A stretch of DNA of 64,000 nt. It comes from Exiguobacterium sp. s122 (GTDB taxonomy: Bacteria; Bacillota; Bacilli; Exiguobacteriales; Exiguobacteriaceae). The number at the start of each line of letters is the position of its first letter. Within the stretch, counting starts at the first letter, position 1. The translations under genes were made by a program, and so were the position numbers. The notes under the pieces are model-generated. The model was not told the DNA's origin. It made no database searches and was given only the letters and a program-made list of their open reading frames with translations. Positions 12,714 through 17,765 of this stretch are shown here, piece by piece. The stretch lies in assembly GCF_018618475.1 (NCBI RefSeq), contig NZ_JACSMD010000001.1, positions 1,612,001 through 1,676,000 of the forward strand, given 5' to 3'.

Positions 12714-14042
12714 TTATACCTCTTTCTTGAATGCGGCGATATAGAAACCGTCCGTCCCGAACGACGTCGGGAGTAATTTAAGTTCAGCACGATCCGATGG
12801 CACCATCGAACGTACAGCGTGCGGGAGTCGCTCACGGAGCGTGTCATCCCACGTCAATCCGTTCGACAAGATATAGTCGGCCTGCTGCTCGTTCTCAGAC
12901 GGGTCGATTGTACATGTCGAGTACACTAGCGTACCACCTCGTTTTAAGAGAGGCAAGACAGCGTCGATAATTTCCCGCTGGACTTTCGGCAACCCAGCGA
13001 GCCCAGCTTTGTCTTTCGTCCATTTGATGTCCGGTTTCCGGCGAATGACGCCTAACCCTGAACACGGGACGTCAAGCAAGATACGGTCAAAACTCTCTCG
13101 TTCGAACTTGTCTCCGGCGCTACGCGCATCGAGGGCAAGTGCGGTCACTCCATCGATATGAAGACGTTTCGCTTGGCGTTCAATCAATTTTGCTTTGTGC
13201 GGATGAAGATCGAGCGCCGTGAGCGACCCACCGTCCATCCGTTCGGCCGTATGCATCGCTTTGCCACCCGGGGCGGCACAAGCGTCGAGTACGTCATCGT
13301 TCGCGTCGACACCGATCGCATCGGCGACGAGCATCGAGCTCTCATCTTGTACCGACAACAAACCTTCCTCGATGAACGAAGTCGCGTGGACGTTCCCAGA
13401 TTCAATGACGAGCCCGTCAACTGATAGTTCAGAGCGAGACGTCAACACGCCTTCGTCGGCTAAACGGTTCATCATCGCCTCGACGGTCGTCTGTTTCCGG
13501 TTGACCCGAACGGTGACCGGTGCCGGTTCATTGTTCAATTTACACATCGTTTCGGTCGCTTCGACGCCGTACATGTCGATCCAATCGGCGACGAGCCATT
13601 CGGGATGGCTATGTTCGATGGCGATCCGTTCCACGTCCGGCAGTGTCGACAAATCAGGGAACCCGTCGCGAAGCACGTTTCGAAGCACACCGTTCACAAA
13701 TTTCCCGGTCCCGGAATGGCCACGTTTTTTCGCGATCTCGACCGCCTCATGTAAGACGGCACGATCTGGCACTTTATCAAGATAAAACAGTTGATATACA
13801 CTCATGCGTAACAGCGGCAAGACAAAACGGTCGAGTTTTCTTGGGTTCTGAATCCGTTTCTCTAAAATATAGTCGAGCGTCCGTTTGCGTCCGAGCGTCC
13901 CGTAAACGAGTTCTGTATAGAGGCCGACGTCTTTCGGGGCCAACTTCTTTTGTTTCAATAATTCGTTGACGGCAATCGTCGAATAGGCCCCGCCTTGTTC
14001 AATTTTAATCAGCGTATCTAGCGCTGCTTGTCTAACGTTCAT
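12714..14042 (-). CDS. rsmB: 16S rRNA (cytosine-967-C5)-methyltransferase RsmB
   Basis: Methylates C967 of 16S rRNA. 442 residues: an N-terminal NusB-like RNA-binding domain (about 1-140) and a C-terminal SAM methyltransferase domain with [12 protein letters not shown], the catalytic [10 protein letters not shown] (PC motif) and [12 protein letters not shown] (TC motif). AGGAGG lies 5 bases before the ATG. It directly follows the def-fmt reading frame with a single base between them. Confidence 0.97.
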
Positions 14043-14043
14043 G

Positions 14044-15429
14044 TCATCCTCCTAATTGGTCGCCCACTTGCAACTTCTGTCCGGCTCCACGCATGAACGT
14101 GGCACCATCCATTTGTTTTTTCCCTGCTGGTTGTAACAACGTCACTTTAAGGGCGACATCGTTCCCAGTCGCAACGACAAATCCGTCCGCCTCGAGGCGA
14201 ACAATCGTCCCGGCTTCCCCGCTACCCGTCGTCTTCTCGCTCGCGAACACTTTGACGCGTTCTCCGGCAATCGTCGTGTAAGCGCTCGGGAACGGATTCA
14301 TCCCACGGATATGGTTGTAAATCGTTTCGCCCGGTTGTGTCCAGTCGAGCGCTTCCCGCTCGCGACTGATGTTTGGCGCGAACGTGACGTCCCGCTCATC
14401 TTGCGGTACCGCTTCAATCCATCCTTCTAAAAACGCCGGCAGCGTCTGAATCAACAAGTCCGATCCGGCAACCGAAAGCTTTTCGAACAATGTGCCGACC
14501 GTATCTGTCTCTTCGATTGGCACGATCGTGTTGGCAATCATGTCTCCCGCATCGAGTTGATCGACCATGTACATGATCGTGACACCCGTCTCGCTCTCTC
14601 CATCGAGAATTGCTTGGTGAATTGGCGCCCCACCGCGATACTTCGGTAAGAGGGAGGCATGGACGTTAATGGCGCCATGTGTCGGCGCTTCTAATAGCTC
14701 CGTCGGAACGATTTGTCCGTAGGCGGCCGTCACAATCAAGTCCGGTTTGAGCGCGAGAATGTCTGCGTAATCCGTACGGACTTTCTCTGGCTGCAGGACC
14801 GGGATGTCGTGGCGAAGCGCACATTCTTTCACCGGCGTCGGTTTCAATTCACGTTTACGCCCGACCGGTTTATCCGGTTGGGAGACGACACCTACGACAT
14901 TGTATCCTTCTTCGAGCAGGCGCTCAAGTACAGACACAGCGAATGTCGGCGTTCCCATGAAGACGATTCGCTTGTCCGTCCCTTTGTTTGGAACGGCGAG
15001 CTTGTCCGTGAACAAGACACCGTCCAAATGATCGATTTCGTGTTGAATCGCTCGGGCGAAAAAGCCGCTTGCATGAATCTGTTGCACGCGTCCTTTCAAA
15101 TCTTGTGTCTTGACGACAATCGTCTCGTGGCGTTCGACGAAACCGAACTCACCCGGGATGCTCAAACACCCTTCAAGTCCGACTTCTTTCCCTGACGTCT
15201 CGATGATTTCTGGGTTAATCAAGACGAGCGGACCCGTCTCGTCATCCGTATGGACGACGGCGAGACGCTGGTTCAAGTTCACTTGTGGTGCTGCGACACC
15301 GACTCCGTCGTACTCATACATCGTGTCGAATAGACGGTCGACCGTCTGACGTAACTTCTTATCGAACTTCGTCACCGGTTCACAGACGACCCGTAAAATC
15401 TCATTTGGTACTTCTACTACTTTATACAT
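14044..15429 (-). CDS. Fused peptide deformylase - methionyl-tRNA formyltransferase
   Basis: One 461-residue frame joins two enzymes that are separate in known Bacillus. Residues 1 to about 152 are peptide deformylase with all three motifs: [16 protein letters not shown] and the metal site QHEIDHLDG. The deformylase C-terminal tail is short, and after about ten residues (AVPNKGTDK) the Fmt domain starts at RIVFMGTP, with [16 protein letters not shown] and the aspartate in VDQLDAGD. One enzyme formylates Met-tRNA before initiation, the other removes the formyl group from new proteins. No ATG, GTG or TTG is found near the junction to start Fmt alone. Start ATG chosen for GAGGTGG about 6 bases upstream. 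A base error could mimic fusion, but it would have to remove both a stop and a start. Confidence 0.9.
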
Positions 15430-15440
15430 CAAGTTCCACC

Positions 15441-17765
15441 TCACATGAATACGTATGGATTTACATCGATACTCAATTGATACTCTTTTTTGCTGATCGC
15501 TTTCGCCCGGGCCTGTTGGAGCATGGCGAGTGCAGGATAAAGCGAGTCTGGTTGCTTCGTTTTGATAAACAATTGATAACGATACAAGTTTTTTAGCTTC
15601 GATAACGGTGCAGGCATTGGCCCGTTCAACCGCGACTGATCGATTTGCATATTCAAAAAATCGTCAGCGAACTGTTCGGCCTCGGTCTGCGCCACGAGCG
15701 GGTTCTCGGCCGCGATCGTGACGAGCGTGACGTACCAATACGGCGGATGCGTCCCGACTTGCCGGAGTCGCATTTCCTGCTCATAAAACGCTTCATAATC
15801 ATGCTGGCTCGCCGTCTCGATGACGTAATGCTCTGGATTATACGTTTGGACGTACGCCTCTCCAGGAAGCTTGCCTCGACCGGCGCGTCCGGCCACTTGC
15901 GTCACGAGTTGGAACGTGCGCTCGGTCGCCCGAAAGTCTGGCATGCCGAGCGTCGCATCTGCGGCGAGCACGCCGACGAGCGTGACGTTCGGGAAGTCGA
16001 GCCCTTTGGCAATCATTTGTGTACCGAGCAAGATGTCGGCCTCTCCGTCCTCGAACCGTTTTAACAGTTGTTCATGCGACCCTTTTCGAGACGTCGTATC
16101 TTGGTCCATACGGATGATTCGCGCGTCCGGGATGCGGTTGAGCAGTTCCGTCTCAATCTTTTGTGTCCCCGTCCCGAACTGTTTAATTTTTTTACTGTCG
16201 CACGATGGACATGTGGATGGCATCCCCTGCTCATAGCCACAATAGTGACATTTCAAGCGATCTCCGTGTTGGTGATACGTCAAGTTGACGGCACAGTGTG
16301 GACACGTGAGTCCTTCCCCGCAATCCCGACACATCACGAACGTTGTGAACCCTCGTCGGTTCAGCAAGATGACACACTGTTCTTTCTTCGCGATTCGGTC
16401 ATTGATCGCGACAAATAAATCTTCGGAGAACATCGTCGTATTGCCTCGGGCGAGCTCACGGCGCATATCGATAATATGCACCGGCGGCATCTCACCGCCG
16501 TAACGTTCATTTAAATGAAGATAACGGTAGACGCCACGCTGTGCACGGGCATACGACTCGAGTGACGGTGTCGCACTGCCGAGCACGACGGGGCAACCGT
16601 GATAACGGGCCCGCCAAATCGCGACGTCTCGCGCATGGTAGCGCGGGTTCTCTTCTTGTTTATACGTCGTTTCGTGCTCTTCATCCAAAATGATGAGTCC
16701 GATGTTCTCGAGCGGGGCAAAAACAGCCGATCGAGCCCCGACGACGACATCGACTTCACGACGCTTGATTTTCCGCCATTCGTCGTATTTCTCTCCTTGG
16801 GAGAGCGCGCTATGGAGCACGGCGACGCGGTCCCCGAAGCGGCGTTTGAATCGTTTCACCATCATCGGGGTCAAACTGATCTCCGGGACGAGTAAAATCG
16901 CCTGTTTCCCTTGATCGACGACCCGTCCGATTGCTTCAAGGTACACTTCGGTCTTCCCGCTTCCCGTCACACCATGTAACAAGAGCGTCTCTCCGGCCTC
17001 TGCCTCGCGAATCGCTTTCACGGCGGTCGTTTGGCTTTCGTTCAATTCGACCGTTTCGCTCACTTGTTCGATTAAGGCGTACGGGTCACGATTTAATTCC
17101 ACCTCGGTCACCCGGACGGCGCCGAGCGCCTCGAGTTTTTGTAGTTGTGCCCGTGACAGGCCGATTTGCCGGAGCGACGACCAATACATGCGTGGCACGT
17201 CCATAAGTAAGCGCATCGCTTCTTGTTGTTTTTTCGCGCGGGCGGGGACAACATTCGCATCCAATAATTCGATGACGAGGTCTGTCTTCACGGTCCGTTT
17301 TTCTTTTAATACAGGCGATAATGAGAGGTCGCCTTTTTTGGCAAGGTCGAGAATGACGGATTGCACGTCTTTCGGATATTCTGACAAGTGCGTACCGGCT
17401 CGAACACCTTCCGGGAGTGCCCCACCTTTAATCTCTTTGTCATAGCTCACCTTTAATGCGGCCGGGAGCATGGCGAGGAGGGCCGAGGAGCGGAAACAGA
17501 GCGTCGTCTCTTTTACATGCGTCGACAAGGCGAGCAACTCATCGGTCAACGACGATTCCTCATCGAGGAGCGCCTCAAGCGGTTTCAATCCGTCACGTGT
17601 CCCTTCGGACAGTCCGGTGACGATCCCAAGAAGCCGGCGTGCTCCAAACGGGACCGAGACGCGCATGCCCGGTTCAATCAACGCTTCGAACTGGACCGGG
17701 ACCTCATAATCGAACGGACGGTCGATTGTGATGACCGGGGCATCGACATGGACGTGGGCGATCAT
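15441..17765 (-). CDS. priA: Primosomal replication helicase PriA
   Basis: Restarts stalled replication forks and loads the replicative helicase. 774 residues: an N-terminal DNA-binding domain, Walker [17 protein letters not shown] box, and a zinc-binding region with eight cysteines ([13 protein letters not shown] ... CHYCG ... CPSC), then the C-terminal helicase motifs ([19 protein letters not shown]). Its ATG overlaps the coaBC stop by four bases (ATGA). Confidence 0.97.

Follow-up and report, generated by a model that had tools for sequence, protein, structure and literature searches.

A fused peptide deformylase and methionyl-tRNA formyltransferase gene in Exiguobacterium, with similar in-frame fusions in a second class of Bacillota

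Introduction

A gene in which def (peptide deformylase) and fmt (methionyl-tRNA formyltransferase) are joined has been published for Exiguobacterium. In the part of that paper used here (PMC12690207; Mol Biol Evol 2025, msaf311), the def-fmt fusion is described in four Exiguobacterium reference genomes, and a second deformylase is reported in all Exiguobacterium genomes. With a codon-optimised fusion from E. alkaliphilum, an E. coli def-fmt mutant grew normally again, and this complementation is said there to show deformylase activity of the fusion (PMC12690207). Within the open-access literature searched, this was the only paper found to contain the phrase “def-fmt fusion”. Going by those sections of the paper, the finding itself is thus already known, and the original prediction for the DNA studied here, which took the fusion to be undescribed, is out of date.

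ArnA is a formyltransferase that is fused to a dehydrogenase and is involved in lipid A modification. The core of the Escherichia coli deformylase is active without its C-terminal tail. Through its C-terminal helix, this enzyme contacts ribosomal protein L22 (uL22), as stated in the portions of PMC8712518 and PMC12690207 used here.

Results

The fusion gene and its surroundings

The window, which is the whole stretch of 64,000 nucleotides of Exiguobacterium sp. s122 that was analyzed, contains def and fmt as a single frame of 461 codons without a stop at 14044-15429. This frame had been predicted and is borne out, but it lies on the minus strand, which had been left unstated. The plus strand of 14044-15429 contains several stops in the frame tried. 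The features of the locus are as follows.

14044..15429, minus strand: def-fmt fusion gene, 461 codons plus stop; ATG at 15429-15427, stop at 14046-14044
14989..15429, minus strand: peptide deformylase domain, residues 1-147 (PF01327 at 1-145; best-ranked deformylase structure 1ws0)
14974..14988, minus strand: short linker, residues 148-152, from the junction comparison with 68 separate-gene Bacillales loci
14047..14973, minus strand: methionyl-tRNA formyltransferase domain, residues 153-461 (PF00551, PF02911, TIGR00460, structure 4iqf)
15436..15442, minus strand: likely ribosome binding site GAGGTGG, 5' of ATG 15429, overlapping the last bases of priA
15441..17765, minus strand: priA, the upstream neighbour, with 11 bases from its stop to the fusion ATG
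12714..14042, minus strand: rsmB, the downstream neighbour, with 1 base from the fusion stop to its ATG

The gene order around the fusion is coaBC-priA-[def-fmt]-rsmB-rlmN-stp-prkC, where stp and prkC encode a Stp1-type phosphatase and a PASTA kinase. No stop interrupts the fusion frame immediately upstream either; counted from stop to stop it has 539 codons, and the mechanical open reading frame begins at GTG 15444. Judged from the sequence, ATG 15429 behind GAGGTGG is the likely start, and this ATG, with a GAGGT box before it, was recognized by eye in all 38 genomes of the Exiguobacterium order.

Both halves of the protein were identified by profiles and by structure. Pfam places PF01327 at residues 1-145, PF00551 at 153-330, and PF02911 at 353-449, all above the curated cut-offs (165.6 bits for PF01327, for which the cut-off is 22.8). 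The equivalog models TIGR00079 (173.7 bits, cut-off 103.95) and TIGR00460 (331.9 bits, cut-off 201.5) are also passed. The AlphaFold2 model of the fusion has a mean pLDDT of 93.9 and a pTM of 0.84, and both domains are well formed in it; the linker is an ordered coil, for which the pLDDT block means are 91 and 95. In Foldseek, the best-ranked deformylase for the Def half was 1ws0 (52% identity over 144 columns, rmsd 0.8), and the best-ranked structure for the Fmt half was 4iqf (59% identity, rmsd 1.1-1.4).

The fusion across the Exiguobacterium order

The fusion is one stop-free frame in all 38 genomes of the order, which belong to two genera of one family and include the 19 genomes of the genus that were searched first; the matches were at 68-100% identity. 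Separate def and fmt genes at this site were not found in any of the 38. The search of the same genus that had been proposed therefore returned fused proteins throughout (19 genus genomes), and the relatives with two genes at this site that would have spoken against a fusion did not appear within the order. The fusion is normal for the genus. Between the two genera, the Def half is 73% identical and the Fmt half 67%.

Deformylase motifs I, II, and III, with the Cys and HExxH metal ligands, are present in all 38 genomes, and so are the catalytic N-x-H-x-S and D patterns of Fmt. The strict Fmt motif string is present in 32 of the 38. Thus, the intact deformylase and Fmt motifs noted in the original prediction hold for the order, apart from the strict Fmt string in six genomes. 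Its suggestion that both activities are real agrees with the sections of PMC12690207 used here, in which both are reported as functional on the strength of the complementation of the E. coli def-fmt mutant by the E. alkaliphilum fusion.

A second deformylase

A further deformylase match outside the fusion was found in 38 of the 38 genomes. The second def gene that had been proposed for a search is thus present in the genome of the window as well. There, the second deformylase (L138) matches PF01327 and contains GVGIAAPQ, EGCLS, and HELDHLDG. It adjoins pdhA and pdhB, the site that ykrB has in Bacillus subtilis. YkrB is reportedly the main deformylase of B. subtilis, going by the title of a paper of 2001 by Haas that PMC1266368 cites. 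With a second def gene present, the overall cellular ratio of deformylase to Fmt is not set by the fusion, and the fixed 1:1 ratio that had been suggested does not stand at the level of the cell.

In another Exiguobacterium, G012, the second deformylase has an in-frame TAA right before its EGC motif (L139:1417-1419). The second-deformylase matches of the other 37 genomes are without a stop. From the sequence, the stop in G012 may be real rather than a sequencing error. If it is, the fused deformylase would be the only intact one found in that genome, where the profile search gave two loci.

The junction

As had been predicted for relatives of the Bacillus type, def and fmt are adjacent yet separate, which was seen at 68 Bacillales loci. 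At these loci, Def continues past a FTSK-like site with a mostly acidic tail, followed by its stop and by the fmt start. An example of the tail, from locus L066, is KVTKYYEEDELEG. In the fusion, the C-terminal tail of Def, its stop codon, and the start codon of fmt are all gone. In all 38 genomes of the order, 8-15 residues lie between FTDK and FMGTP, and there are 18 distinct linker strings. A Shine-Dalgarno-like string at the junction was found in G026 and G034 and in none of the other 36 genomes. Many of the 38 genomes have GTG or TTG codons close to the junction. Internal starts at the junction appear unlikely, and with the fmt start lost, Fmt is probably made only as a part of the fusion in most species.

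Fusions in a second class of Bacillota

A phylum-wide sample of 249 genomes gave six further stop-free fusions among the 61 matches listed at E 1e-90, none of them in Exiguobacterium. Five belong to one other class, and the sixth (G487) shares its family with three of them. In 62 genomes sampled from the second class, each frame at the class loci (L140-L145, L176-L226) was tested with profiles built from the alignment of this analysis. Both domains were found in one frame in 37 genomes and in two separate frames in 17; two more had Fmt only, near a contig edge, and six had no match at E 1e-60. Fused genomes outside the Exiguobacterium order thus number 38, the 37 of this sample and G487. Many of the second-class genomes are draft assemblies in many contigs. 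In G363 (family f59, putative Thermaerobacter marianensis), the fusion is on a single-contig assembly of 2,844,696 bases. These in-frame Def-Fmt fusions in another class of Bacillota are new here, and no paper treating Thermaerobacter together with deformylase was found in the open-access literature searched.

The motifs are largely kept in these 38 fusions. With relaxed patterns, HExDHL is present in 38 and EGCxS in 35; the remaining three have EACLS, in which the Cys is kept. Motif I is present in 37 and is unreadable in the last one, which has unknown residues there. For Fmt, the relaxed N-x-H-x-S pattern is present in 38 and the D pattern in 37. Under stricter patterns, motif I is matched in 28, the N motif of Fmt in 36, and its D motif in 32. 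The linker from DHLxG to Fmt strand 1 is 18 to 80 residues long in the 30 of the 38 in which it was measured.

Some regions of these proteins differ in composition or length. In L196, L198, L212, and L215, the stretch between the Def core and Fmt is about 40-80 residues long and rich in Gly, Ala, Pro, and Glu (L215 by eye). The family f59 fusions L142, L143, and L145 have a Gly-, Pro-, and Ala-rich insert in the C-terminal domain of Fmt. In P0003 this domain has 129 residues, compared with 100 model positions.

The fused locus is the only deformylase locus found by the profile search in 31 of the 38 genomes, and a second locus is present in seven; the 31 include G561, with two pieces at one locus, and the profile gives a match in 10 of 14 control genomes. 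In the draft assemblies, copies could be hidden on missing contigs. In family f59, which includes G363, the fusion is the only deformylase found in four of four genomes, two of which are single-contig assemblies.

Number of origins and wider search

A careful tree was made with 79 rows, 43 fused and 36 separate. From the Exiguobacterium order, 6 of the 38 fused loci were used, and from the 69 Bacillales loci L047-L115, 10 were taken. All second-class loci fetched were included apart from L144, which is nearly a copy of L142, along with 7 further rows. All six rows from Exiguobacterium fall into a single clade (100/100). This clade joins separate-gene rows of the Bacillaceae type (100/98), inside Bacilli (100/100). 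A single origin of all fusions, or a transfer between the two groups, is rejected by the AU test, in which the constraint of the 43 fused rows to one clade, a group named after a quick tree had been seen, has a lnL 183.17 lower and a p-AU of 0.00108. The rejection indicates at least two origins. The trees were made with LG+G4 without a mixture, rows of odd composition were flagged, and the backbone inside the second class is weak. There, the fused or separate label changes at least nine times on the careful tree, where the starred branches force only one change, and 10 times on the quick tree, where supported branches force two. Locus L054, from a record titled Chryseobacterium sp. ISL-80, is placed among Bacillaceae in the tree, and its assembly is probably mislabelled.

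No stop-free fusion was found in class Bacilli outside the family of the window among the matches listed (at least about 349 bits; 299 genomes). Two long Fmt frames in Bacilli, in G075 and G257, were considered as fusions and set aside, as their loci have separate genes. Plasmid records gave 1440 matches. Among the 12 matches listed, four had no annotated genes under the match, and one of these (H3) is two abutting genes rather than a fusion. Some records with def and fmt matches that are filed as plasmids are of chromosome size (2.6-5.4 Mb), including NZ_OL790696.1, NZ_CP154629.1, and others. In a second phylum sample of 398 genomes, 89 places were listed at E 1e-100. Eight are stop-free, all in the two fused groups. 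The other 81 are in one frame with at least one stop between or within the genes, in a list that favours same-frame pairs.

Discussion

The explanation that we hold to be highly probable, taken as a whole, is that the gene is a single bifunctional one that arose once in Exiguobacterium and was tolerated, with a second origin elsewhere. One start codon would give the whole protein of about 50 kDa. The N-terminal half would deformylate new proteins, and the C-terminal half would formylate initiator Met-tRNA. Presumably the two halves work as independent modules, one at each end of the formyl cycle, and do not pass substrate directly between them. The def/fmt junction would have been tight already when, in the Exiguobacterium ancestor, a minor alteration there removed the C-terminal tail of Def, the stop, and the fmt start. 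The fusion could have been tolerated if the tail is not needed for catalysis by the deformylase core and if the YkrB-like second deformylase can serve as a backup. A similar fusion would have arisen at least once more, in another class of Bacillota.

By default, the joining of the two is read as a by-product of gene packing that was tolerated. This reading is favoured by the variable linkers and by the frequency of same-frame neighbours (81 of 89 places, in a list biased to such pairs), with which an accidental fusion would be easy. Functional coupling would instead mean that one chain sets a 1:1 dose or keeps the two enzymes in one place at the ribosome, and in this way prevents formylation from getting ahead of deformylation. 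This we consider rather doubtful. The second deformylase of Exiguobacterium breaks any 1:1 dose there, linkers of 8-15 residues in Exiguobacterium and 18-80 in the second group speak against a tuned arrangement, and the ribosome-binding helix of the E. coli type is absent from the fusion. Selection on the link nevertheless stays conceivable, given the repeated origin, the retention throughout the order, and the sole-copy status in the second class. Where the fused locus is the sole deformylase locus found (31 of 38 second-group genomes and all four of f59), the dose is likely to be 1:1, and the pTM of the AlphaFold2 model may hint at a fairly defined arrangement of the domains. We suggest only tentatively that fusion of Def with Fmt recurs as an architecture within Bacillota, with two or more inventions, that it is the sole deformylase in the Thermaerobacter lineage and many relatives, and that the link itself was selected, through dose matching or placement at the ribosome.

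The deformylase half could also be a vestige, with Fmt as the only half that matters and a YkrB-like enzyme doing all deformylation. The second match throughout the order and the rank given to YkrB in B. subtilis fit this. It is very improbable, since the three deformylase motifs are kept in all 38 genomes, the Def half is better conserved between the genera than the Fmt half, the second deformylase of G012 has an internal stop, and most second-group genomes gave no deformylase locus besides the fused one. The complementation in PMC12690207, in the part used here, is likewise said to show deformylase activity. A sequencing or assembly error that erased a stop and a start at the junction is rejected. 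Nothing was found in its favour, and the frame is open in 38 of 38 assemblies from two genera with 18 linker strings.

If the reading as a recurrent architecture is true, one polypeptide carries the whole cycle of formyl addition and removal in those lineages. A deformylase can work when it is joined to Fmt and lacks the helix by which its E. coli counterpart is held on the ribosome. The recurrence and the sole-deformylase cases make it testable whether linking the ends of the formyl cycle matters or is a harmless by-product of packed genes, and these cases and the wider spread merit follow-up. Fused genes can also be scored as def or fmt alone in annotation, which would skew gene counts.

Comparison with known systems

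The published Exiguobacterium fusion is in the same genus, is a single gene, and is accompanied by a second deformylase elsewhere; going by the part of PMC12690207 used here, there is no substantive difference. That part names four genomes, and the present analysis covers 38 genomes of two genera and adds a description of the junction. The def and fmt genes of the Bacillus type have the same domain order as the fusion and are its closest relatives in the tree. The difference is that, at the 68 loci compared, Def extends for about 10-19 residues past the FTSK-like site and Fmt starts from a codon of its own. The type 1B peptide deformylase of E. coli has the same three motifs as the fusion. Its type of C-terminal helix was not found in the fusion, in which FTDKL is followed by a short coil and then by Fmt strand 1. 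Any action of the fusion at the ribosome must therefore work otherwise. This bears on the original proposal that the fusion could bring Fmt close to the ribosome exit: what the fusion lacks is precisely the C-terminal segment through which the E. coli deformylase binds the ribosome. Like the fusion, ArnA has a formyltransferase of the same fold within a two-enzyme chain, as found in the Foldseek matches, but its partner, domain order, and pathway are different.
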